A DNA stretch of 64,000 bases from Desulfobulbaceae bacterium (GTDB taxonomy: Bacteria; Desulfobacterota; Desulfobulbia; Desulfobulbales; Desulfocapsaceae), in assembly GCA_011390165.1 (NCBI GenBank), contig JAABSV010000003.1, positions 1-64,000 on the forward strand, in the 5' to 3' direction. The notes below the pieces were generated by a model that was not told where the DNA came from, made no database searches, and saw only the letters and a program-made list of their open reading frames with translations. Below are positions 21,945 to 34,213 of the stretch, piece after piece. The stretch's first letter is position 1. The number at the start of each line of letters is the position of its first letter. Both the position numbers and the translations under genes were made by a program.

Positions 21945-22048
21945 CCAGAGAGGATAGAGCTAAACCCTGGCGCAGCGCTGAGCAGCCTTTAGGCGATTGT
22001 CGCGGGGCAGAGCAATTTCTAACCAGGCAGAGGTGGCAGGTCAGAGCG

Positions 22049-23740
22049 ATGGACGAAAAGACCCCGGGAAAAATTGTCGGCCTGCGGGCCAGGGCGGAGG
22101 CAGCGCTGCAGGCAGCCCCTGACACCCCCGATTCACTTTCCTCCGCCGATATGCGGCAACTGCTGCACGAGCTGCAGGTCCACCAGATTGAACTGGAACT
22201 GCAGAACGAGGAGCTGCGCCACTCTCAAGATGCCCTGGAGGAGAGCCGGAAACGCTACATGCAGCTCTACCATCGGGCCCCGGTGGGCTATATCGTCCTC
22301 AACCGGGTGGGGATCATCAAACAGGCCAACGCCACCTTCGCGGTCATGACCGGGATGGCCGATGCTGTCAACAACGTCTCCGGCCGGCCGTTTGCCGACT
22401 TTCTGGTCCCCGATGACCGGAGAATTTTCCTGGCCCGGTTAAAATCATTTTTCAAGCACCCCGGCGAAAAGCAGATGCAGGTGCGCTTTGGCGACAGCCG
22501 GCAAACCCGCCTGATTGTCAGTCTGGAGGCTGCCCCCCTGACGGAGATACCTGCAGCGCAGGACTACGCTGATGGGGAGTTTTTTGTCGTTGTCAGTGAC
22601 ATTACCGAGCGGGCTCAGGCCCAGGCCGCCCTGCAGGAGAGCGAAGAGCGCTGGCGGGACTATGTCCTCTACGCACCAATTGGCGTCATCGTCGCCGATG
22701 GCGAGGGGCTTGTCCAGGAGGTCAATCCGGCCTTGAGCCGTCTTGCCGGCCTCGATTCGGCGGCGCTGCTTGGCAAAAAGGTCATCGATCTCTACCCCGA
22801 CCAGGAACGGGGGGCGGTGATGGCCATCTACCAGCTGCTCAAGCTGGAGGGGGAGGCCCATGGCCAACTGAGCTACCGCCATCCCCGCGGCGAAGAGCGC
22901 CGATGGGCCATTGCCGCCGCCAGGATATCGGAGGAGAGCAGCATCAGCTTTGTCGAGGATATCACTGAGCGGTTGCAGCTCGAGGCACAGCGGCAGACCC
23001 TGCAGAAGCAGGTCAATCAACTGGCCAAGGCCGACAGTCTGGGGCGGATGGCCGCGGCGATCGCCCACAATTTCAACAATATGCTGACCGTGGTTGTCGG
23101 CAACCTGGAGATCGGCATCGATCAGCTGGCTGGTGGCCCCGGGACCAACACTCTCCGCAATTCGCTGCAGGCGGCCTGGAAGGCCTCGGAACTGAGCCGG
23201 GCGATGCTCACCTACCTCGGCCAGTCAAGTGAAAACAGAGAGGAATTCGCCCTTGGCCGCTTCTGTGCCGCCCAGTTGCTCCGTCTGGCCCGGGCCAAGC
23301 CGGTGGCGGTGCGGATGGTGGAGGAGATTGCCACCGAGGGACCGATCGTCCTGGCCAGTATCCGGGAGATGGAGCAGGTCGTGTCGCACCTGCTCGCCAA
23401 TGCCTGGGAGGCCTGCGCCGATCGTCCTGGGAAGGTGACGGTGCGGGTCGGTTCGGTGGAACCTGGCGGCATCATCGGCAGCCACCGCCAGCCGCTCAAC
23501 TGGCAACCGGGGGCCTCTCTTTATGCCTTTCTTGAGGTCGGCGACAGCGGTGGTGGCATTGCCCCGGCAGACCAGGAACGGCTCTTTGATCCCTTTTTCT
23601 CCACCAAGTTCACCGGTCGGGGAATGGGTCTGCCGGTGGTGCTGGGGATAGTCCGTGCCCACGGTGGGGTGATAACCGTTACCAGCCGGCTCGGGGTGGG
23701 AACGACCATCCGGGTCTACCTGCCGGCAGAGCGCCGCTGA
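22049..23740 (+). CDS. PAS-domain sensor histidine kinase
   Basis: A 563-residue soluble kinase. After an N-terminal helical region (residues about 30-70, HQIELELQNEELR) come two PAS domains, each ending in a DITER motif (near residues 184 and 304). The phospho-accepting His340 lies in AAAIAHNFNNML, a variant of the H box typical of NtrB-like kinases. The ATPase part has an N box (HLLANAWEA), G1 (GDSGGGI), F box (FDPFFSTK) and G2 (GRGMGL). It follows the CheB-CheR-PAS gene by 104 bp in the same direction and may supply the kinase that protein lacks. No response regulator is adjacent. Confidence 0.9.
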   Translation: MDEKTPGKIVGLRARAEAALQAAPDTPDSLSSADMRQLLHELQVHQIELELQNEELRHSQDALEESRKRYMQLYHRAPVGYIVLNRVGIIKQANATFAVMTGMADAVNNVSGRPFADFLVPDDRRIFLARLKSFFKHPGEKQMQVRFGDSRQTRLIVSLEAAPLTEIPAAQDYADGEFFVVVSDITERAQAQAALQESEERWRDYVLYAPIGVIVADGEGLVQEVNPALSRLAGLDSAALLGKKVIDLYPDQERGAVMAIYQLLKLEGEAHGQLSYRHPRGEERRWAIAAARISEESSISFVEDITERLQLEAQRQTLQKQVNQLAKADSLGRMAAAIAHNFNNMLTVVVGNLEIGIDQLAGGPGTNTLRNSLQAAWKASELSRAMLTYLGQSSENREEFALGRFCAAQLLRLARAKPVAVRMVEEIATEGPIVLASIREMEQVVSHLLANAWEACADRPGKVTVRVGSVEPGGIIGSHRQPLNWQPGASLYAFLEVGDSGGGIAPADQERLFDPFFSTKFTGRGMGLPVVLGIVRAHGGVITVTSRLGVGTTIRVYLPAERR

Positions 23741-23845
23741 GCCGCCATTCCTCTCCGCCGGGTGCCCACCCCTCCCCCTCCATCTCCCGTCGGCACAGCC
23801 GGTGCCGCCTGCTTACCTGCCGTTTTCCCTTGCAGTTTCTGTCTG

Positions 23846-25261
23846 TCAGAGATTGTGCTTGTGGATTTTCTTGTACAGCAGGGTGCGATGGATGCCAAGC
23901 ATCCGGGCGGCCTTGGCCTTGTTCTGGCCGCTTTCCTGCAGGGCGAGGACAATGGCCTCCTTTTCCGCCTGCTCCTGAATCTGCCGGATGGGGGCGGTGG
24001 TGCCGCCCTTGCCGCCGCCCTCCTTGGGGTGGAGGTAGAAGGGGAGATCCTGGACTCTCACCCAGTTCCCCTCCAGGGAAGAGAGGGTCCGTTCCACCAC
24101 GTTGGCCAGTTCCCTGACATTGCCGGGCCAGTCGTAGCCCTCCAGGGCAGAGGCGGCAGCCTGGCTGAAGTCAACTTCGCTCAGGTGGGCCTCACTGCGC
24201 AACTGCTGCAGGAGGTGGCGACCGATGGGGAGGATGTCCTCGGGGCGTTCACGCAAGGGGGGAATGGTCATCGAGAAGACGTTCAGGCGGTAAAAGAGGT
24301 CCTTGCGGAAGCGGTTTCCGGCCAGGAGCCGTTCTAAATTCTGGTTGGTGGCGGCGATCAGGCGAAAGTCGGAGCGGATCAGCTGGGTTCCCCCCACCCG
24401 TTCGAACTCCTTTTCCTCGAGGACCCGGAGGAGCTTCGGCTGCATCTCCAGGGGCAGGTCACCGATCTCATCGAGAAAGATGGTGCCCCGGTGGGCCAGC
24501 TCAAATTTTCCCGGTTTGCCCTGCGGGGCGGCGCCGCTGAAGGCCCCCCGTTCGTAGCCGAACAGCTCTGATTCGAACAGATCCCTGGGAATGGCGGCGC
24601 AGTTGATCCGGACGAAGGGGTGCAGCTTCCGTTCGCTGGCATGGTGGATCGCCTGCACGAAGAGCTCCTTGCCGGTGCCGCTCTCGCCGCAGATCAATAC
24701 CGGAAAATTGCTGGCGGCCGCCCGCAGGGCCTCGTTTTTCAAGGTGGCGAGGGTCTGGCTCACCCCGACAATGCTGTCGATGGTGTAGCGGATCGAGCGG
24801 AGGGCCAGCAGTTCCGCCTCGTACACCTCCAGTTTTGACTCGAGCAGGGAGAGCTGCTTGGCCAGGCGGCCGAGGTCGCGAACATCCTTGAAGAGTACCA
24901 GCCCGAACACCGCAATCACCGTACCCCCCTTTTTGATCGGGATGCGGTGGACCACCATGTTCTGTCCCATGATCCGCTGGCTGTGGCTGAATTCGGGGAT
25001 TCCAGTACGGGCGACGATGTGCATCCGGCTGTTTTCGATCACCTCGGTACAGTGTCTGCCGATTTGTGCGGCCGGGTCGAGGCCGAGAAAGCGGCCGTAG
25101 GGTTGGTTGAAATGGGTGATGTAGCCGTCACGATCGGTGACGAGAGCACCGTAATGGATGTGCTCGAAGATGAGGGTGTAGATCTCGAGCTCTTCCCGGA
25201 GGCGGTCCTGTTCTTCCAGCCTTTCGGGTGAGTCCGGTAATGGTCCAGGCAGGGTATCCAT
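23846..25261 (-). CDS. Sigma-54-dependent activator with N-terminal PAS domain
   Basis: The 471-residue protein has a PAS sensor (residues about 25-130), a coiled linker, an AAA+ domain (Walker A GESGTGKE at 192-199) and a C-terminal Fis-type helix-turn-helix (NKAKAARMLGIHRTLLYKKI). The sigma-54 contact loop reads GAFSGA (239-244) instead of the usual GAFTGA, a conservative Thr-to-Ser change. There is no receiver domain, so it probably senses a ligand. It diverges from the CoA-transferase gene, which has a -24/-12 promoter, making that gene the likely target. A palindrome lies just upstream of its start at 25274-25286. Confidence 0.92.
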   Translation of the reverse strand: MDTLPGPLPDSPERLEEQDRLREELEIYTLIFEHIHYGALVTDRDGYITHFNQPYGRFLGLDPAAQIGRHCTEVIENSRMHIVARTGIPEFSHSQRIMGQNMVVHRIPIKKGGTVIAVFGLVLFKDVRDLGRLAKQLSLLESKLEVYEAELLALRSIRYTIDSIVGVSQTLATLKNEALRAAASNFPVLICGESGTGKELFVQAIHHASERKLHPFVRINCAAIPRDLFESELFGYERGAFSGAAPQGKPGKFELAHRGTIFLDEIGDLPLEMQPKLLRVLEEKEFERVGGTQLIRSDFRLIAATNQNLERLLAGNRFRKDLFYRLNVFSMTIPPLRERPEDILPIGRHLLQQLRSEAHLSEVDFSQAAASALEGYDWPGNVRELANVVERTLSSLEGNWVRVQDLPFYLHPKEGGGKGGTTAPIRQIQEQAEKEAIVLALQESGQNKAKAARMLGIHRTLLYKKIHKHNL

Positions 25262-25273
25262 GAATGACCTGTA

Positions 25274-25286
25274 GTAGAAATTCTAC
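25274..25286. promoter_or_regulatory. Palindrome upstream of the sigma-54 activator gene
   Basis: GTAGAA-A-TTCTAC is a perfect 6-bp inverted repeat with one central base, 13 bp before the activator's ATG and about 140-150 bp upstream of the candidate sigma-54 promoter of the CoA-transferase. The position suits either an upstream activating site or autoregulation. This is inferred from symmetry and position only. Confidence 0.4.
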
Positions 25287-25426
25287 ATGTATACCATGTG
25301 CTGCACTTTTTCGTCAACACCCTCTTCCCTGACGGCGGCAAGGGACCGGCTTCAGGTGGCTGGAAGGCCACGCGGCAGCGGCTTTCGGCGCGGAGCGCCT
25401 CCAGCCGGTTGAAAGTGGCACTGTCC

Positions 25427-25442
25427 TGGTCCGGATTTTGCT
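25427..25442 (+). promoter_or_regulatory. Candidate sigma-54 (-24/-12) promoter
   Basis: TGGTCCGGATTTTGCT fits the consensus TGGCACG-N4-TTGCW at 10 of the 12 defined positions. The essential GG and GC pairs are separated by exactly 10 bases. It lies 96 bp before the CoA-transferase ATG, opposite a divergently transcribed sigma-54 activator gene. Confidence 0.65.
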
Positions 25443-25538
25443 GATTCTTCGTTGATCAACCCACTGTCGTCGCCGGCCGTCGCCGGTCGTAGCATCGACC
25501 GGCAGCAACTGCCATAAAAATTTGCCCGGGAAAAAGGT

Positions 25539-27185
25539 ATGCAGAGCACAGCAGCATCCGCCCCCCCCTCAGAGTGCAGACGGCCGGTCGCAGCCGGCAA
25601 GGTTGTCAGCGCCGCCACTGCCGCAGCGGCAATTGCTGATGGCAGCACCATTGCCACCGGCGGTTTTGTCGGCACCGGTTTTCCCGAGGAGATTGCCATT
25701 GCCCTGGAAAAACATTTTCTTGCCCACCAGCGGCCACGAAACCTGACCATGGTCTATGCCGCCGGGCAGGGTGACGGCAAGGAGCGTGGGCTCAACCACT
25801 TCGGCCATGACGGCATGGTCCGGCGGGTGATCGGCGGCCACTGGGGGCTGGTGCCGAAACTGCAGCAACTGGCAATTGACAACCGGATCGAGGCCTACAA
25901 CCTCCCCCAGGGGGTGATCTCCCACCTCTACCGCGATATTGCCGCCAAAAAACCGCGCACCATCACCTCGGTGGGGCTGGGAACCTTTGTCGACCCGCGC
26001 CTGGGCGGGGGGCGGATCAACAGTGCCACCACAGAGAATATTGTCGAACTGATCAACTTCGACGGTGTCGAGTACCTTGCCTATCGAACCTTTCCCATCC
26101 ATGTCGCCATCCTGCGGGGAACCACCGCCGACGAAAGCGGCAATGTCACCATGGAAAAGGAGGCCCTGACCCTCGATTCCCTGGCCATGGCGATGGCGGC
26201 AAAAAATTCCGGTGGCATGGTTATCGTCCAGGTGGAGCGGATCGCCGACCGCGGTACTCTCCATGCCAGACAGGTTAAGATTCCAGGTATTCTGGTCGAT
26301 TACGTGGTTGTCTCGGAACCTGCCAACCACTGGCAGACCTTCGGCGACTGCTACCACCCGGCTCGCAGTTGTGAGATTCGTATCCCTCTCCAGTCGTTGC
26401 CGATCATGGCGATGAGCGCCAGGAAAATCATCGCCCGGCGGGCGGCCTTCGAACTACGGGCCGGCAGTATCGTCAATCTCGGTATAGGCATGCCGGAGGG
26501 GGTAGCCAATGTTGCCAACGAGGAGGGGGTTCTCGACCAGCTCACCCTCACCACGGAACCGGGAGTGATCGGCGGTCTCCCCGAAGGGGGGCTCAATTTC
26601 GGTTCGGCCATCAATACCGAGGTGCTCATCGACCAGAACGCCCAGTTTGATTTTTATGACGGTGGCGGCCTGGACCTCGCCTTTCTCGGGCTGGCCCAGG
26701 CCGATCGCCAGGGCAATCTCAACGTCAGCAAGTTCGGCCCCCGTCTGGCCGGTGCCGGTGGTTTTATCAATATCAGCCAGAACGCCCGCAAGGTGGTGTT
26801 TGTCGGCACCTTCACCGCCGGCAGGCTGGAGGTGGTGACTGCCGAAGGGAAGCTGCAGATCATCAGTGATGGCGACAGCGTAAAGTTCGTCGACCAGGTG
26901 GAACATGTCACCTTCAGCGGCCTCTATGCGATGCGCAAGGGGCAGCAGGTGCTCTATATCACCGAGCGCTGTCTCTTTCAGCTGACCCCGGCCGGCATGG
27001 AACTGATCGAAATTGCCCCGGGAGTCGACCTGCAGCGGGACATCCTCGCCAAAATGGCCTTCACCCCGCTGATCCGGGAACCGCTACTAGAGATGGATGG
27101 GCGAATTTTCAGGCAGGAGCCGATGGGTCTGCGGAAGGGTGAATCGTTCACCGGTATGCAAAGGCTGTCGAAGCCGGATCTGTAA
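25539..27185 (+). CDS. Acyl-CoA:carboxylate CoA-transferase (propionate/acetate type)
   Basis: Class I CoA-transferase in which both halves are fused in one 548-residue chain, as in propionate CoA-transferase (Pct) and YdiF. The catalytic Glu is Glu340 in TTEPGVIGG; GLGTFVDPRLGGGR and GSIVNLGIGMPEGV mark the two halves. It would move CoA between acyl-CoA and short-chain acids such as acetate, propionate or lactate. A sigma-54 promoter and divergent activator point to substrate-induced control. The last 14-15 residues, after GLRKGE, are encoded by a copy of the dispersed repeat and match no family feature. The ATG is weakly supported; homology starts near residue 20. Confidence 0.9.
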   Translation: MQSTAASAPPSECRRPVAAGKVVSAATAAAAIADGSTIATGGFVGTGFPEEIAIALEKHFLAHQRPRNLTMVYAAGQGDGKERGLNHFGHDGMVRRVIGGHWGLVPKLQQLAIDNRIEAYNLPQGVISHLYRDIAAKKPRTITSVGLGTFVDPRLGGGRINSATTENIVELINFDGVEYLAYRTFPIHVAILRGTTADESGNVTMEKEALTLDSLAMAMAAKNSGGMVIVQVERIADRGTLHARQVKIPGILVDYVVVSEPANHWQTFGDCYHPARSCEIRIPLQSLPIMAMSARKIIARRAAFELRAGSIVNLGIGMPEGVANVANEEGVLDQLTLTTEPGVIGGLPEGGLNFGSAINTEVLIDQNAQFDFYDGGGLDLAFLGLAQADRQGNLNVSKFGPRLAGAGGFINISQNARKVVFVGTFTAGRLEVVTAEGKLQIISDGDSVKFVDQVEHVTFSGLYAMRKGQQVLYITERCLFQLTPAGMELIEIAPGVDLQRDILAKMAFTPLIREPLLEMDGRIFRQEPMGLRKGESFTGMQRLSKPDL

Positions 27186-27200
27186 CGTTCTTCCTGGTCG
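27139..27200 (-). repeat. Dispersed repeat fragment forming the end of a gene
   Basis: From 27139 the sequence aligns with the start of the minus-strand copy at 52607: GAATCGTTCACCGG, ATGCA, AAGG, a GCCGGAT block and TGTA-n-CGTTC. There is a short gap and a few substitutions. The CoA-transferase stop codon (27183-27185) falls inside it. Similarity fades after about 27200, so this is a partial copy. Confidence 0.65.
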
Positions 27201-27241
27201 ACTAGCAAGGGCGGCGATAATCGATAGATGGAGCAGAGTTG

Positions 27242-27270
27242 TTGCAATAACAGGTAGGACCAATTATATT
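27242..27270 (+). promoter_or_regulatory. Candidate sigma-70 promoter of the first TRAP operon
   Basis: A -35 box TTGCAA (27242-27247) and a -10 box TATATT (27265-27270) are separated by exactly 17 bp. They match the consensus at 4 of 6 and 5 of 6 positions. An operator-like GGTAGGACCAAT (27253-27264) fills most of the spacer. The first gene downstream begins at 27425. Confidence 0.6.
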
Positions 27271-27336
27271 TCTGCGCTTGGTCCTACCGTGATTGGTCCT
27301 ACCGCGATTGGTCCTACCTCTATTAGTACGACCAAT
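27253..27336. promoter_or_regulatory. Array of five GntR/FadR-like operator sites
   Basis: Four copies of a 15-bp unit start at 27277, 27292, 27307 and 27322. The first three read CTTGGTCCTACC or ATTGGTCCTACC plus three variable bases; the fourth reads ATTAGTACGACCAAT and is nearly palindromic. A fifth copy in the opposite orientation lies at 27253-27264, inside the promoter spacer. The core TNGTnnnACNA is the known pattern for FadR-subfamily GntR regulators (for example PdhR and LldR). No such regulator gene is in the window. The exact period and the promoter overlap suggest cooperative repression. Confidence 0.6.
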
Positions 27337-27424
27337 AAGAGAATTCCGACAATACAGTGCGGATACGTGATGCGGCCGGGTGTGCCGGCCGCGTTGCCGA
27401 ATGCCACAACCAAGGAGGAAAGAG

Positions 27425-28585
27425 ATGGGAAAAGGAAAAATGATCGCAGGTCTGGCCTTGAGTCTCACCATGGCGTTGTCGTCGGCAGCCGTTGCCGCCG
27501 AAAAGCGGGAAAAATTTGGTGCCGACAAGAGGAGTGAACAGATCAAGAAGGAGTTGCGGACCATCAAGCCATCCACCGAGACCTTTCGCTGGAAGATGGT
27601 CATGCCCTGGTCGAAGGGTCTGCTCTTCTTCGATATGGCGCAGCATTTCGCCGACTCGGTGAAGCTGGCCTCCGGCGGGCGGCTGGATATCAAACTCTTT
27701 TCCGCCGGCGAACTGGTCGGCGCCATGGAGTCCTTTGACGCGGTGAGCAAGGGGTCCGCCGAAATCGGTCACGACTGGCCCGGCTACTGGATGGGCAAGA
27801 ACGACAACTTCAACTCCTTTGCCTCCGTTCCCTTCGGTTTGGATGCCGAGGGCTACAACATCTGGCTCTATGAGCGCGGTGGTCTCGAGCAGATGCAGGA
27901 ACTGTACGGCCGGTACAACCTCTACGCCCTGCCCGGCGGCAACGGTGGTCAGGAGATGGGCTTCTTCTCCAACAAGCGTGCCACCACCATGGCCGACTAC
28001 AAGGGAATGCGGCTGCGCACCCCTGGCTGGTACATGGATATCATGAACCGTCTGGGCGCCTCGGTCACTCCGCTGCCCGGCGGTGAGATCTACCTGGCCC
28101 TGGAGCGCGGGGTTATCGACGGCGCCGAGTTCAGTACCCCGGCGATCAACTATCCCATGGGGTTTGACGAGATCACCAAGTACGTGCTCACCCCCGGTGT
28201 GCACCAGCCCTCGGTGCAGTGCGCCTTCTTCATCAACATGGATGCCTGGAACAAGCTGCCGGCCGACCTGAAGTGGATCGTCGATATCGCCGCCAAGGAG
28301 ACCCAGCTCTGGTCCAACGCCTGGCAGGAGAACCTCAACATCGAGGCGATCAAGCTGTTCAAGGAGAAGGTTGAATTTGTGAAGATGGACGACGAGGCAA
28401 TCACCGAGTTCGCCAAGGTGACCAAGGAGTACCTGGAAGAGGTGAAGGCGAAGAACCCCGATGCCAAGAAGACCCTCGATTCCCAGGAGCAGTTCAAGCG
28501 TGACTTCGCCGACTGGCGGGAGATCCGCAGCGGCATCACCCCCTGGCCCATTGATGACTTCATCAATGGGAAGAGAATGCAGTAG
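27425..28585 (+). CDS. dctP: TRAP transporter substrate-binding protein, TakP-like
   Basis: The 386-residue periplasmic protein has a cleavable signal peptide (to about residue 25, ending AVAAEK) and a DctP-type fold. The segment ASGGRLDIKLFSAGELVGAMESFDAVSKGSAEIGHDWPGYWMGK closely follows the TakP/TTHA0766 branch that binds 2-oxo acids or lactate, although exact ligands cannot be confirmed. A strong AAGGAGG ribosome-binding site precedes the ATG at 27425. It is first in a dctP-dctQ-dctM operon behind the operator array. A stem-loop follows it, which may raise its mRNA level relative to the membrane subunits. Confidence 0.93.
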   Translation: MGKGKMIAGLALSLTMALSSAAVAAEKREKFGADKRSEQIKKELRTIKPSTETFRWKMVMPWSKGLLFFDMAQHFADSVKLASGGRLDIKLFSAGELVGAMESFDAVSKGSAEIGHDWPGYWMGKNDNFNSFASVPFGLDAEGYNIWLYERGGLEQMQELYGRYNLYALPGGNGGQEMGFFSNKRATTMADYKGMRLRTPGWYMDIMNRLGASVTPLPGGEIYLALERGVIDGAEFSTPAINYPMGFDEITKYVLTPGVHQPSVQCAFFINMDAWNKLPADLKWIVDIAAKETQLWSNAWQENLNIEAIKLFKEKVEFVKMDDEAITEFAKVTKEYLEEVKAKNPDAKKTLDSQEQFKRDFADWREIRSGITPWPIDDFINGKRMQ

Positions 28586-28608
28586 TCTCTCCCGGGTCCT
28601 GCCGGCAG

Positions 28609-28635
28609 GGGCGGGGGCGGCAGTCGCCCCCGCCC
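28609..28635 (+). terminator. Intercistronic GC-rich stem-loop after dctP
   Basis: GGGCGGGGGCG (28609-28619) pairs perfectly with CGCCCCCGCCC (28625-28635), leaving a 5-base loop. A pyrimidine-rich, T-containing stretch follows within about 20 bases. Between dctP and dctQ it would act as a partial terminator or an mRNA-stabilising hairpin, giving more binding protein than permease. Confidence 0.65.
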
Positions 28636-28679
28636 TCTTCTTCTTTCTTTTTTCGGTTTCCCAGTCAGGTGAGGCGCTC

Positions 28680-29195
28680 ATGCAGTCGATCATTCGTGCA
28701 ATAGACACCCTTACCGAGTTCATCGGCCACTATTCCGCCTATCTGGTCCTCCCCCTGATCGGGGTGGTCAGCTATGAGGTGATGATGCGCTACGGTTTCA
28801 ACGCCCCGACCGTCTGGGCCTTCGAAATGACGGTCTTCCTCTATGGGGTCCATTACATGCTGGCCCTCGGCTATGCCCACAAACACGACAGCCATGTCGC
28901 CATTGATGTCTTCGAGTCGAGACTGCCGCGCAGGATACGGACCATTCTGCGGATCATCGTCAACCTGGTGCTCTTTGTCCCGACCATCGGCCTGCTCACC
29001 GTCTGGTCCTTTATCTACGCCAACACCTCATGGGGCTTCACTGAAAGGGCTTCTTCCTCGTGGGGGCCGCTGATCTATCCCTACAAGTTTATCATGGCGG
29101 TCGGTTTTCTCCTCTTTTTCCTGCAGGGGGTGGTGAAACTCCTTGAGGATTTCCGCTCGCTGCGTTCCGCTGCAGAGTCTCCCAAAGAGTCATAG
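28680..29195 (+). CDS. dctQ: TRAP transporter small membrane subunit
   Basis: The 171-residue protein has four membrane helices, the layout of DctQ subunits, with the conserved EVMMRYGFNAPTVWAFEM region near residues 33-50 and a GYAHKHDSHVAIDVF segment. It links the binding protein to the DctM permease at the inner membrane. The ATG at 28680 is preceded by GGTGAGG. It lies 94 bp after dctP, a gap containing the stem-loop, and 20 bp before dctM. Confidence 0.92.
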   Translation: MQSIIRAIDTLTEFIGHYSAYLVLPLIGVVSYEVMMRYGFNAPTVWAFEMTVFLYGVHYMLALGYAHKHDSHVAIDVFESRLPRRIRTILRIIVNLVLFVPTIGLLTVWSFIYANTSWGFTERASSSWGPLIYPYKFIMAVGFLLFFLQGVVKLLEDFRSLRSAAESPKES

Positions 29196-29215
29196 ACTGT
29201 ACCGAAGAGGATGAT

Positions 29216-30556
29216 ATGACCCCTGAAATCATGACAGTTCTGATGTTCACCACCCTGGTGGCGGCGATAGTCGTCGGCCACCCGCTGGCGGTGACCCTGG
29301 CCGCGGTCGCCACCCTGTTCGGTCTGATCGACAACGGTTTCAATGTTCCCGGTCTGCTCGACCTGTTCGTCAACAACGCCTGGGGGATCTTCCTCAACTA
29401 CACCCTGGTCGCCATTCCACTGTTTATCTTCATGGCGCAGATCCTCGACCGCTCCAAGGTCTCGGAAGGGTTGTTCGACGCCCTCTATATCGTTCTTGGC
29501 GGTTTGCGCGGCGGCCTCGGCCTGGCGGTAATCGTGGTGTCGACGGTTTTTGCCGCCACCACCGGCATCATCGGCGCCTCGGTGGTGGCCATGGGGCTGA
29601 TGGCCAGTCCGGCCCTGCTCCGCCGCGGCTATGACCGTTCCCTTTCCGCAGGGATCATCTGTTCCTCCGGCACCCTGGGGATTCTCATCCCCCCCAGCAT
29701 CATGCTGGTGGTGTACGGTGGCCTCACCGGCCTCAAGGAGACCTCGGTGGGCAACCTCTTCGCGGCGGCGATTCTTCCCGGCCTGGTGCTCTCCGGCCTC
29801 TATCTGGCCTATGTCTTTCTCCGCTGCAGCATCAACCCGAAGCTGGGCCCGCCGATTCCAAGGGAGGAGCGTACCGCCACCCCCGGCCAGAAGTTGATGA
29901 TGGTGGTCAAAAATTTCGTCCCCCCCTTCGGCCTGATTCTGGTGGTGATGGGGACCATTCTCGCCGGCATGGCGACCCCCACCGAGGCGGCGGCCCTTGG
30001 GGCGGTCGGTGCGGTTCTTCTGGCCCTGGTCTCCGGCAAGCTCTCCCGGGAGGTGATCACTCAGGCGTCGATCTCCACCGCCCGCACCACCGCCATGATC
30101 ATGGCTCTCTTCATCGGCGGCAAGCTGTTCAGTGTGGTCTTTCTCAGCATGGGCGGCGGGGATGTCGTTGCCGATGCCCTGCTGGGCATGGATGTCAGCC
30201 CGTATGTGGTGCTGGTGATCATGATGGCGGTGGTCTTCTTTCTCGGCATGTTCATCGACTGGGCCGCCATCCTCCTGGTGGTGGTGCCGATCTTCACCCC
30301 CATCGCCATGGATCTCGGCTTCAACCCGCTGTGGTTCGCCATGCTGATCTGTATCAACCTGCAGACCTCCTTCCTCACCCCCCCCTTCGGTTATGCCCTC
30401 TTCTATTTCAAGGGGGTGGCGCCGCCGGAGTTCACCATGGGCGACGTCTATCGGGGAATTCTCCCCTTCGTGGCGATCCAGTTGGTCGGCCTGGCCCTGA
30501 TGGTGATCTATCCGCAGATCATCACCTGGCTGCCCGATCTGGTTTTCGGCCGCTGA
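29216..30556 (+). CDS. dctM: TRAP transporter large permease subunit
   Basis: DctM subunits carry out sodium-coupled import of the bound carboxylate. The 446-residue protein has about twelve membrane segments and conserved family stretches, including AGIICSSGTLGILIPPSIMLVVYGGLTG, the glycine-rich AATTGIIGASVVAMG and a late LQTSFLTPPFGYALFYFKG. A GAGGATGAT site precedes the ATG. With the upstream dctP and dctQ it makes a complete TRAP system. Confidence 0.94.
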   Translation: MTPEIMTVLMFTTLVAAIVVGHPLAVTLAAVATLFGLIDNGFNVPGLLDLFVNNAWGIFLNYTLVAIPLFIFMAQILDRSKVSEGLFDALYIVLGGLRGGLGLAVIVVSTVFAATTGIIGASVVAMGLMASPALLRRGYDRSLSAGIICSSGTLGILIPPSIMLVVYGGLTGLKETSVGNLFAAAILPGLVLSGLYLAYVFLRCSINPKLGPPIPREERTATPGQKLMMVVKNFVPPFGLILVVMGTILAGMATPTEAAALGAVGAVLLALVSGKLSREVITQASISTARTTAMIMALFIGGKLFSVVFLSMGGGDVVADALLGMDVSPYVVLVIMMAVVFFLGMFIDWAAILLVVVPIFTPIAMDLGFNPLWFAMLICINLQTSFLTPPFGYALFYFKGVAPPEFTMGDVYRGILPFVAIQLVGLALMVIYPQIITWLPDLVFGR

Positions 30557-30632
30557 GGCGGAGCCGGGTCTCCGTTTACCGGCGCTTTGTACCGGCCGCT
30601 GCCGCCCGGTTCGCAAAAAGAGTGCGCTCCTC

Positions 30633-30665
30633 TCTCCGGAAGGGTATATTCACCCCGTCCGGAGA
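30633..30665 (+). other. Stem-loop between the two TRAP operons
   Basis: TCTCCGGA (30633-30640) pairs with TCCGGAGA (30658-30665), and an inner GGGT/ACCC pair extends the stem around an ATATTC loop. No T-run follows, so it may be an mRNA processing site or an operator and not a simple terminator. It lies in the 242-bp gap between the two transporter gene sets. Confidence 0.45.
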
Positions 30666-30798
30666 CGGGAGCGGTGGCCTTTCCCCCCTTCTCTTCTCTC
30701 CAAGACCATCCATCCGGTAAACCGTTCCCGGTTGCCGGTGCTGGCGACGGTGCCTTCCGGTACCAGCCCTTTCTCACCATCACAGAGGAGACCAACCG

Positions 30799-31773
30799 AT
30801 GCGCGTCCGAACCACGATTTTTGCTTTCGCCACTTTTTTCCTGCTCTTCTGCCCCTCCCTGCAGGCCAAAACTACGGTCAATATTGCCGCCGTAACCAAC
30901 CCCGCCCTGGTACACGTCATGGCGGCGAACTGGTTCAAGGAGGAGGTGGAAAAGGCCCTGCCGGACAGCTATGAGGTGGTGGTGCACCATTCCGGCGCCC
31001 TCGGCAGCGAGACCCAGGTCCTCCAGCAGATCCAGCTGGGCACCACCCAGATGTCGGTCTGCACCACCGGCCCCATCGAGGCCTTTGTGCCCGAGGTCAA
31101 GGCGCTGGAAATGCCCTTTATCTTCCCCTCCTATGCCGCCGCCGACAGTGTTCTTGACGGCCCCATCGGCCAGGAACTGGCGGAACGGTTTGCGGCCCAG
31201 GGCTTTGTCGCCCTCCATTTTCTTGATAACGGCTTCCGCAACGTCACCAACGCCAAGCGGCCGGTGAAGAGCCCCGCCGACCTGGCCGGGCTGAAGATTC
31301 GTACCATGGAGGCACCCACCCATCTGGCCATCTGGCGAGCCATCGGTGCCAACCCGACACCGATGGCCTGGCCGATCTTCACTGCCCTGCAGCAGGGGGT
31401 TATCGATGGTCAGGAAAACCCGGTGGCGGTGATCCATGCGGCAAAACTGATCGAGGCCGGCCAGAAGTATCTTACCCTCTCCCGCCACGTCTACTCCGCG
31501 CTGGTGATCGTTGCCAATAAAACCTTTATCGATACCCTGCCGGAGGCGGATCGTGAGGTGTTCTACCAGGCCGCCCGCACCGCCTCGCTTAAAGGGCGGG
31601 AGTTTATCCGCGGCAATGAGGAACAGCAACTGGCCGAACTGGCCGCCGCCGGCATGGAGATCGAAACCGCCCCGGACACCGAGGCCTTTCGGGCGGCCAC
31701 CGCCTCGGTGCTGGCCGGGTTGAGCGGCGACACCAAAAAACTTGTCGAAAAGATCAACCAGGCGGTGAAGTGA
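30799..31773 (+). CDS. dctP: TRAP transporter substrate-binding protein, second system
   Basis: A 324-residue periplasmic binding protein of the classical DctP branch, quite different from the one at 27425. A signal peptide ends near LQAKT (residue about 24). The ligand-binding Arg is expected in GLKIRTMEAPTHLAIWRAIGANPTPM, and the segment TALQQGVIDGQENP is a strong family signature. The ligand is likely a C4-dicarboxylate or another organic acid, but is not determined. The stop codon overlaps the GTG start of the next gene, so the three genes are translationally coupled. Ribosome-binding site: GAGGAGA before the ATG. Confidence 0.93.
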   Translation: MRVRTTIFAFATFFLLFCPSLQAKTTVNIAAVTNPALVHVMAANWFKEEVEKALPDSYEVVVHHSGALGSETQVLQQIQLGTTQMSVCTTGPIEAFVPEVKALEMPFIFPSYAAADSVLDGPIGQELAERFAAQGFVALHFLDNGFRNVTNAKRPVKSPADLAGLKIRTMEAPTHLAIWRAIGANPTPMAWPIFTALQQGVIDGQENPVAVIHAAKLIEAGQKYLTLSRHVYSALVIVANKTFIDTLPEADREVFYQAARTASLKGREFIRGNEEQQLAELAAAGMEIETAPDTEAFRAATASVLAGLSGDTKKLVEKINQAVK

Positions 31774-32285
31774 AGCAAAAGGAGTCGCAGAAAGGGCAGG
31801 GCGGACTTGCCGCCCTGCTGGAACGGGCCAGCCTGGCCACCAACGCGGTGGTCGAGAAGCTGCTGATCCTGATCGGCTCGGCCATCTGCCTGATCCTCTT
31901 TGCCCAGGTGCTCATGCGCTATGCCGGCTCCTCGCTGGGCTGGTCGGAGGAGGTGAGCCGCCATCTTCTGGTGGCCATCACCTTCCTGGGCAGTACCGCT
32001 GCCTACCGACGGAGCGGATTCATCGGGCTGCGCGGTGTCGGCCAGTGGTTCGGCCCCCGGATGGAGCGGCTGATTCTGCTCCTCCTGCAGCTGCTCACCC
32101 TGGCCTGCTTTGCACTGATCAGCTGGTTCGGGGTCGTCTACACCGGTAAGGCCTGGGGGCACACCTCCACCTCCCTGCAGATTCCCATGGCCTTTCCCTT
32201 TGCGGTGATTCCCGCCGCCGCCCTGATCCTGATGCTGCATGTGGGCAGTGATATGGCCAGAACCGTGCAGAGGGAAACACCGTGA
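31770..32285 (+). CDS. dctQ: TRAP transporter small membrane subunit, second system
   Basis: The 171-residue protein has four membrane helices after a charged N-terminus, with the DctQ motif VLMRYAGSSLGWSEEVSRHLLV near residues 48-70. It starts at a GTG overlapping the dctP stop (GTGA) and its own stop overlaps the GTG of dctM, so expression of all three is tightly coupled. No stem-loop separates it from dctP, in contrast to the first TRAP operon. Confidence 0.91.
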   Translation: MKQKESQKGQGGLAALLERASLATNAVVEKLLILIGSAICLILFAQVLMRYAGSSLGWSEEVSRHLLVAITFLGSTAAYRRSGFIGLRGVGQWFGPRMERLILLLLQLLTLACFALISWFGVVYTGKAWGHTSTSLQIPMAFPFAVIPAAALILMLHVGSDMARTVQRETP

Positions 32286-33586
32286 CCGTCCTTCTCCTCT
32301 TTGCCCTGCTCTTTCTCCTTATTGCCCTGGGGATGCCGATTGCCCTGGCCATCGGTGTCCCGGCCATTGGCCTGATCCTCACCCCAGGGGTCTTCCCTCC
32401 CGGGGTATCTCTGGCCGGACTTGGCCAGACCATCGTCCAGCTGCTTTTTGCCGGGGTCGATTCCTTCGATCTGCTGGCCGTTCCCCTCTTCATGCTGGCC
32501 GGGACGATCATGGAGCGGGGCGGGATCTCCCGCCAGATCATCGATTTTTCCGACAACCTGGTGGGCTGGCTGCCGGGTGGTCTGGCCTGTGCCTGCATCG
32601 TCGCCTCAATGTTTTTTGCCGGTATCTCCGGTTCGGCGGCGGCGGACACGGCTGCCATCGGTGCCGTGGCCATTCCGGCGATGGTCCGCCAGGGGTACCC
32701 GCCGGCCTTTGCCGCCGCGGTGGTGGCGGCCGGCGGCGCCATCGGGGTGATTATTCCGCCGTCAATCCCGATGGTGATCTTCGGCTTTCTGACCAACGTC
32801 TCCATTGCCCAACTGTTTGCCGGCGGCATGCTGGTGGGGGGGCTGTTCGGCCTGGTGCTGATGCTGGTCACCGTCGCCATCTCCTGGTACTATGGCTATG
32901 GCAGTCGTCGTCCCTTCTCGGGGCGGCGTCTGGTGCAGGCCTTTGGCGAGGCCGGCTGGGCCCTGGGGGCGCCGGTGATCGTTCTCGGCGGCATTCTCAG
33001 CGGTCTGGTTACTGTCACCGAAGCGGCTGCTTTGGCGGTCTTCTACGCCCTCTTCGTCAGCATGGCGATCAATCGCGAACTGAGCTGGCGGGATATGCCC
33101 GACCAGCTGGTCCGCTCGCAGCTCACCGCCGCCAGCGTCCTGCTGATTATCGCCATGGCCAAGGTATTCACCTGGCTGGTGGCGATGCAGCAGACCAGCC
33201 AGTATCTGGGGACAATGATGAGCGGCCTTGCCCTGCCCCCCTGGGGCTTACTGCTGCTGCTGATGGCTGGGCTGCTGGTGGTGGGCTGTGTGATGGAGAC
33301 CACTGCCGCGTTGATTCTGCTGGTGCCTGTTCTGGTAGTCCTTACCCCGCAGATGGGAGTCGACCCGATCCAGTTCGGGGTGCTGGTGGTGCTCAATCTG
33401 GCTGTTGGGATGCTTACCCCGCCGGTGGGCATCTGTCTCTTTGTCAGCTGCGGTATCTCCGGGGTTCCCCTGGCCAAAGTCTCACGGGCCGCCCTGCCGC
33501 TGGTGGGAGCCGCCCTGGCCGTTCTTCTTCTCGCCAGCTTCTGGCCACCCCTTACCCTCTGGCTGCCCGCCCTGCTCTACCCCTGA
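32282..33586 (+). CDS. dctM: TRAP transporter large permease subunit, second system
   Basis: The 434-residue permease has about twelve membrane segments. Family features include FAGISGSAAADTAAIGAVAIPAMVRQGYPPAFAAAVVAAGGAIGVIIPPSIPMVIFG in the first half and LNLAVGMLTPPVGICLFVSCGISG near the end. It starts at a GTG inside the dctQ stop. The strong divergence from the dctM at 29216 shows that the two TRAP systems are not a recent duplication but separate transporters placed side by side. Confidence 0.93.
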   Translation: MTVLLLFALLFLLIALGMPIALAIGVPAIGLILTPGVFPPGVSLAGLGQTIVQLLFAGVDSFDLLAVPLFMLAGTIMERGGISRQIIDFSDNLVGWLPGGLACACIVASMFFAGISGSAAADTAAIGAVAIPAMVRQGYPPAFAAAVVAAGGAIGVIIPPSIPMVIFGFLTNVSIAQLFAGGMLVGGLFGLVLMLVTVAISWYYGYGSRRPFSGRRLVQAFGEAGWALGAPVIVLGGILSGLVTVTEAAALAVFYALFVSMAINRELSWRDMPDQLVRSQLTAASVLLIIAMAKVFTWLVAMQQTSQYLGTMMSGLALPPWGLLLLLMAGLLVVGCVMETTAALILLVPVLVVLTPQMGVDPIQFGVLVVLNLAVGMLTPPVGICLFVSCGISGVPLAKVSRAALPLVGAALAVLLLASFWPPLTLWLPALLYP

Positions 33587-33769
33587 TCTTCCTGATCCAG
33601 CCGGCGCTGTGCTTTCCTCAACGCTGATTGCCCGGGCAACCTGGCTGCTGCCGTTTTATCCCCATGACCGGTGTTGCGGTTCGGCAGCGTCTGCCAAGGG
33701 TGGTGCCAGGAGCAGAACCGCTGCGGCCCCTTCAGGGTGGTCAGCGGCGGGGAAGGACCTTTGCCGCGT

Positions 33770-34213
33770 TCAAGCCATTTTTCCCCCCACTGCCCGGCCG
33801 TACTCCTGACAGGCCTTCAACCCGTCAGTGCTGCCGACCTGGGCCTCGGTGAGATTGAGTGCCCCGAGGTCGGTCATGTCCATTTTGAAGACGTGGAGCA
33901 TGGTGTCGTAGATCATCGGTGCGCTCTCACCACTGTGGGTGTGGGAACCGAAGGCACCGCCGATCTTGCCGACCAAATTGGCCAGTTCCGCCTTGAAGAG
34001 GAACTGTTTCATTCCGGCGGTCATGTCCTTGTGGTAGGTCGGACAGCCGAACAGATAGCCGTCGTAGCCGACGATGTCCTCCTCGTTGTCGATTTCGGAG
34101 ATTTTTTTCACCGTCACCTCGCAGGCGGCAAAGCGCAGGCCCTCGGCGAGGTAGTTGGCCATGGTCTCGGTTTTTCCGGTTCGGCTGGAATAGACAATCA
34201 GTACCTTTTTCAT
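33770..34213 (-). CDS. Flavodoxin-like protein
   Basis: The 147-residue protein has the flavodoxin fold. The FMN phosphate-binding loop is SSRTGKTETMA (residues about 9-19), followed by IDNEEDIVGYDGYLFGCPTYHKDM and GKIGGAFGSHTHSGESAP, which bind the isoalloxazine ring. It would carry one or two electrons at low potential in the cytosol as an alternative to ferredoxin. The ATG at 34213 is chosen for its AAGGAGG site; the frame remains open upstream without coding character. It is a single gene, convergent with the second TRAP operon. Confidence 0.88.
   Translation of the reverse strand: MKKVLIVYSSRTGKTETMANYLAEGLRFAACEVTVKKISEIDNEEDIVGYDGYLFGCPTYHKDMTAGMKQFLFKAELANLVGKIGGAFGSHTHSGESAPMIYDTMLHVFKMDMTDLGALNLTEAQVGSTDGLKACQEYGRAVGGKMA

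Follow-up and report, generated by a model that had tools for sequence, protein, structure and literature searches.

Five putative LldR/PdhR/GlcC-like operators clustered at the promoter of a TRAP transporter operon in a Desulfobulbaceae bacterium

The operators of GlcC, LldR, and PdhR are described as TKGT-N3-ACMA palindromes with 3 bp between GT and AC (PMC4494728). The same source describes weaker half-sites located 7 to 12 nt from the site centre in GntR-family sites (PMC4494728). For the Escherichia coli GntR/FCD repressor NanR, several dimers are described as assembling cooperatively on the direct-repeat operator (GGTATA)3 (PMC8012715). Here, we analyzed a 64,000-nucleotide stretch of a Desulfobulbaceae genome (the window), in which five operator-like sites, four direct and one inverted, lie between a CoA-transferase gene and dctP1, the first gene of a TRAP transporter operon. 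Neither this operon nor FadR-subfamily sites arrayed at 15 bp were described in the open-access literature that we searched. Sequence comparison gives good support for reading the sites at this TRAP transporter operon as FadR-subfamily (LldR/PdhR/GlcC-like) operators. We propose, with a probability of roughly 0.7, that they are the operators of an LldR/PdhR/GlcC-like repressor (GntR HTH plus FCD), most likely the product of C60:7636-8388, that would control dctP1-dctQ1-dctM1 for small 2-hydroxy/2-oxo acids.

The four direct sites start at 27277, 27292, 27307, and 27322, a step of 15 bp, and the site in the opposite orientation lies between the predicted −35 and −10 boxes (Table 1); the coordinates thereby bear out the layout given in an initial annotation of this DNA. 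The 11-bp core TTGGTCCTACC is identical in the inverted site (27253 to 27263, minus strand) and in three direct sites (27278 to 27288, 27293 to 27303, and 27308 to 27318, plus strand), in register with the starts at 27277, 27292, and 27307, and the fifth copy, ATTAGTACGACCAAT at 27322, is degenerate. With TGGT and ACCA boxes and 3 bp between GT and AC, the array follows the palindrome, though at the three middle sites the right box is ACCG, ACCG, and ACCT, without the outer A, and the right arm is incomplete. The core TNGTnnnACNA that the annotation had ascribed to the array as a whole is present in full only at 27250 and 27322. Sites were scored with a matrix made from 74 sites from relatives, the window's own sites being excluded, and were ranked over all positions of the window; two of the five array sites score low.

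Table 1. Positions of the array, its predicted promoter, and the surrounding genes in the window
Feature	Position	Strand	Basis or remark
Sigma-54 activator gene	23846-25261	-	
CoA-transferase gene	25539-27185	+	
Predicted −35 box TTGCAA	27242..27247	+	Consensus scan, weak; distance to operator agrees with relatives' TTGACA
Operator 1, inverted, ACAGGTAGGACCAAT on plus strand, between −35 and −10	27250..27264	-	Rank 1 in window; relatives' matrix score 22.6
Predicted −10 box TATATT	27265..27270	+	Consensus scan
Operator 2, CTTGGTCCTACCGTG, right arm incomplete, at predicted transcription start	27277..27291	+	Matrix rank 16 in window
Operator 3, ATTGGTCCTACCGCG, right arm incomplete	27292..27306	+	Matrix rank 6 in window
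Operator 4, ATTGGTCCTACCTCT, right arm incomplete	27307..27321	+	Matrix rank 3 in window
Operator 5, ATTAGTACGACCAAT, palindrome nearly complete (11/12)	27322..27336	+	Matrix rank 2 in window
Ribosome-binding site AGGAGG	27413..27418	+	Sequence
TRAP operon dctP1-dctQ1-dctM1	27425-30556	+	
dctP1, TRAP solute-binding protein	27425..28585	+	Related to 2hzk and lactate-binding TTHA0766
dctQ1, TRAP small permease, start approximate	28635..29195	+	Position and homologs in relatives; no NCBIfam match
dctM1, TRAP large permease	29216..30556	+	Profile match
Second TRAP operon	30799-33586		

The pattern TTGGTNNNACC has five matches in the window, against a shuffle mean of 1.58, and 2 of 100 shuffles also reach five, so that the clustering, rather than the count, is the nonrandom part. 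In 200 simulated windows scored with the relatives' matrix (tandem duplication was not modelled), 90 bp contained at most two matches, versus five in the array. Repeat detection with TRF gave a 15-bp unit in 3.0 copies with 90% matches, and the linkers GTGATT and GCGATT are alike. This repeat structure favors the possibility that working operators are confined to the inverted site and the final one or two copies, with the middle copies being role-less slippage by-products of the 15-bp unit, as do the modest ranks of sites 27277 and 27292 (just 16 and 6) and the absence of a three-copy array from all other genomes searched. However, TTGGTCCTACC is identical in three copies, unlike the linkers and outer arms, a pattern consistent with selection on the core; a recent duplication could give the same picture. 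We consider such a division into working and idle copies conceivable, though on the improbable side.

The −35/−10 pair (17-bp spacer; 9 of 12 consensus matches) is a weak prediction, as one pair was found where 0.3 was expected; TTGCAA begins 35 bp before site 27277. An open reading frame at 27097 to 27537 would give IGPTA-like pentapeptides across the array, a coding-repeat reading that we set aside because this frame differs from that of the CoA-transferase gene with which it overlaps and because the palindrome is what is conserved. Alternatively, if transcripts read through from the CoA-transferase gene upstream, the inverted and direct copies could act as an RNA hairpin, and positions 27250 to 27345 do fold at −34.8 kcal/mol (z = −4.97), a stability reached by 0 of 200 shuffles. 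We judge this highly improbable: a palindromic inverted repeat folds by construction, the part from the predicted start at 27277 to 27345 gives a z of only −1.88, relatives conserve a single palindrome with a fixed 3-bp spacing, and no U-run terminator was found in 27000 to 27500.

The reading as operators is supported by conservation upstream of dctP1 orthologs. Within 450 bp upstream of the gene, ATTGGTnnnACCAAT is matched at 10 or more of its 12 positions at 53 of 78 ortholog loci and at 11 or more at 34; the other 25 have no site at 10/12 or better. The first 450 bp of the gene itself, taken as a control, contain such a site in 1 of the 78, and 59 permuted half-site motifs gave a mean of 1.8 loci and a maximum of 20, the latter with the near-identical half-site TATGGT. 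The spacing is specific too, with 2 to 9 loci for spacers of other lengths and 53 for the 3-bp spacer alone. The 78 loci are 80 dctP1 relatives minus L196 and L212, which begin within the gene and so have no upstream DNA. They include near relatives (e.g., Desulfotignum rows), and one of them, L146, is the same genome as G005 (below); the start codons are extrapolations from the alignment, and the upstream DNA is shorter than 450 bp at three loci.

The position of the operator relative to the −35 box was also determined in relatives. Where a promoter was found (42 sites), the box precedes the operator by 32 to 40 bp in 23 cases and by 26 to 29 bp in 14. The former class has a TTGACA box, belongs to relatives of the Desulfuromonadales type, and would place the operator over the transcription start; in the latter, the operator would overlap the −10 box or follow it closely. 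Relatives carry a single start-site operator or two operators ∼145 or 200 bp apart, and in the tree, the window's DctP1 falls in a 25-row clade (99/99) with Desulfuromonadales loci that have the single start-site operator. Ortholog conservation, the GntR gene linked in relatives, and the sites at a dehydrogenase operon (both described below) agree with the initial annotation, which had placed FadR-subfamily operators at a transporter operon. Free variation between close relatives, which it had named as counterevidence, is seen for the array and not for the motif.

To identify the regulator, we examined GntR genes. The window's genome has nine FCD-type GntR genes and 13 GntR HTH matches in all. 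In two genomes of the same genus (G005 and G012), a GntR/FCD gene stands divergently beside dctP1, and the region between the two genes contains sites at 12/12 and 11/12 in G005 and at 12/12 and 12/12 in G012. By its identical match coordinates and score, the G005 contig is the Desulfopila sp. IMCC35006 contig of the dctP1-relative set. The ortholog of this GntR gene in the window's genome, C60:7636-8388, lies on another contig, unlinked to the array; the FadR-family gene that one would look for is thus linked in G005 and G012 and not in the window's own genome. C60 shares neighbours with G005, and the dctPQM cassette is absent from C60 and present in the window. Among 30 loci with this GntR gene or a homolog (two of them near-duplicates), 12 have a site at 10/12 or better, and 10 have two or more sites, 143 to 149 bp apart in nine and 94 bp apart in one. 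The promoter of the C60 gene itself contains no site at 9/12 or better that could serve autoregulation. This absence weighs against the proposal, as do the missing linkage, the two low-scoring array sites, the 25 orthologs without a site, and the similar sites at two other FadR-type regulators of the genome.

The C60 protein exceeds the Pfam cut-offs for the GntR HTH (PF00392; 67.5 bits) and FCD (PF07729; 84.8 bits) domains and has ∼10 residues ahead of the HTH profile, assuming a start at MQLKP like that of its homologs. One Asp and three His of the FCD domain are conserved in C60 and in ten aligned homologs, and we take this Asp-His-His-His set to be the metal/carboxylate site of the pocket. 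Its NCBIfam scores are 160 for LldR (cut-off, 311), 150.5 for PdhR (cut-off, 330), and 117.7 for GlcC (cut-off, 301); as all three are below the equivalog cut-offs, we call the protein LldR/PdhR-like and do not file it as LldR. The array could also consist of FadR-subfamily operators read by another regulator, namely, C25 (C25:24561-25322), C57 (C57:793-1545), or a protein in the missing tenth of the genome (completeness, 90.9%). TGGTnnnACC-type sites precede the gene or operon of both C25 and C57, and the two proteins keep, like C60, the PER/SER motif and two recognition-helix arginines in the HTH. Yet only C60, of the three, has orthologs beside a dctP1 operon with these sites, the C25 sites are overlapping pairs with a common ACCGGT centre, and the last conserved His is missing in C25, as are several conserved FCD residues in C57. 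We regard control by one of these other proteins as unlikely and retain C60 as the candidate regulator.

Further sites in the same genome bear on the effector. A GlcD-like gene and the GlcF/LdhH-like gene after it are preceded by a pair of sites 123 bp apart, and this lactate/glycolate-dehydrogenase-like operon (L074:5955-8689, on C22) is likely a second member of the putative regulon. At three homolog loci of the Desulfuromonadales type (L254, L258, and L259), a site lies at the start of the GntR gene itself, and the neighbouring gene is a convergent iron-sulfur gene, which in L254 is LdhH/GlcF-like by best score. The relatives of DctP1 among solved structures include 2hzk/2hzl, which we take to be TakP (the structure is titled otherwise), and the lactate-binding TTHA0766 group. 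Together, these structural relatives and the dehydrogenase-linked sites point to lactate, glycolate, or pyruvate as the effector. Other genomic matches to TGGTnnnACCA were excluded as regulon members because seven of the eight places examined lie inside predicted reading frames and none of the eight clearly precedes a lactate-type gene. On C25 (L066:3270-3453), ATTGGTAATACCGGTCTGACCAAT and ACTGGTAATACCGGTAAGACCAAT are two overlapping operator pairs separated by 160 bp; the operon that they precede includes another FadR-type GntR gene and an apparent tripartite tricarboxylate-type transporter. On C57, identical AATGGTACTACCAAA sites at L072:1563 and L072:1694, 131 bp apart, stand before a third FadR-type GntR gene.

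The unusual feature of the array is its copy number; related bacteria carry one or two sites. Three tandem copies were found in the window's genome only, among 257 genomes of the class. A loose tandem pattern matched 24 of the 257, but the reversed pattern, used as a control, did so no less frequently, and most of these matches are therefore attributable to chance; under the strict pattern, the second genome is G061. The locus is a known kind of operator in a new arrangement, and the multicopy array itself is not conserved.

Relatives of the same genus differ even in the type of control. Several of them, such as G003, G007, G010, and G013, have no operator site upstream of dctP1; a TGGCAC-N5-TTGCT-like sequence, found by eye, occurs there, with a sigma-54 activator adjoining. 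In L021, L022, L025, and L026, such a sigma-54-like sequence replaces the GntR-type operator at about −150 to −170 from dctP1. Several same-genus relatives seem, from their promoter motifs, to use sigma-54 promoters at the orthologous dctP1, so that this one transporter has apparently moved between GntR and sigma-54 regulator types. We considered and rejected an element through which the neighbouring sigma-54 activator would exert control: the relatives have TGGCAC-N5-TTGCT-like promoters upstream of dctP1, but a sigma-54 pattern scan of 22000 to 34000 returned no match between 25261 and 25539 and none directly upstream of dctP1. In several relatives (L118, L127, L050, L051, and L057), the CoA-transferase gene travels with the sigma-54 activator, the GntR gene, or dctP1.

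To evaluate the 15-bp step, we collected weaker second sites (8/12 or better) around 96 sites from relatives. These lie at offsets of 14 (n = 1), 15 to 17 (n = 10), 25 to 26 (n = 11), and 31 to 36 bp (n = 10), with none at 18 to 24. None of 300 flank shuffles reached 10 at 15 to 17 or 11 at 25 to 26 (means, 2.1 and 1.5), in bins that were set post hoc, after the histogram was seen, and on sequences that are related. The total of 40 second sites was reached in 16 of the 300 shuffles, so the spacing stands out more than the number. A Rayleigh test gave R = 0.58 at a period of 10 and R = 0.53 at 10.5 (0 of 20,000 uniform draws) on 36 offsets pruned by hand: a mutual pair at 26 had been reduced to one member, and four similar rows at 34 had likewise been reduced to one. 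Steps of ∼16 and ∼25.5 bp correspond to ∼1.5 and ∼2.4 helical turns, and the window's 15 bp falls in the first class. As accessory offsets are near half-integral turns, neighbouring dimers on nearly opposite helix faces look like the rule for this group rather than an exception. The 15-bp period had been deemed unusual in the initial annotation, a view that finds no support in the relatives, with their preference for accessory sites at 14 to 17 and 25 to 26 bp.

In the working that we propose, repressor dimers would, when the acid is absent, occupy the inverted site within the promoter as well as those between the predicted start and approximately +60, and the bound dimers would block RNA polymerase; acid entering the FCD pocket would release them. 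The start-site operator would have been multiplied at a 15-bp step, with abutting dimers on nearly opposite helix faces, and the simplest history would be one start-site operator, its downstream multiplication in 15-bp steps, and an added inverted site inside the promoter. A more tentative extension, which we hold to be rather doubtful, is that four or five LldR/PdhR-like dimers form a cooperative antiphase chain on the 15-bp lattice, each about half a turn from the next, which might convert a graded acid-uptake promoter into a steep switch. If so, half-turn accessory sites (14 to 17 and 25 to 26 bp) would be general for this regulator group in Desulfobacterota.

With one, two, or five operators before the same orthologous operon in different genomes, the locus would provide a natural operator multimer in which to compare the effects of copy number and helical phase inside a single regulator group. 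The findings further suggest that sulfate reducers and Desulfuromonadales may have an LldR/PdhR-like regulon for lactate-type acids and that, among close relatives, the same transporter may have switched between control by GntR and control by sigma-54.

Among described systems, the array resembles that of NanR in its tandem direct-repeat operator and its GntR/FCD-type candidate regulator, with cooperative binding at the array being a prediction by analogy. However, NanR, as described, reads short direct repeats of another sequence, whereas the array sites are palindromic at 15 bp, and its cooperativity is described as requiring a 32-residue N-terminal extension (PMC8012715), where the C60 candidate has ∼10 residues before the HTH profile. 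The described flanking half-sites of GntR-family operators are matched arithmetically, as a 15-bp step centres the next TGGT box ∼11 nt away; unlike those single, weak half-sites, the array copies repeat four times, with the core identical in three. The LldR, PdhR, and GlcC systems of Proteobacteria share with the present locus the TKGT-N3-ACMA palindrome (PMC4494728), lactate, glycolate, or pyruvate genes, and a regulator with GntR plus FCD domains. From these, the present locus differs in that C60 scores far below the equivalog cut-offs (160 versus 311 for LldR) and in that five sites are clustered at one promoter.
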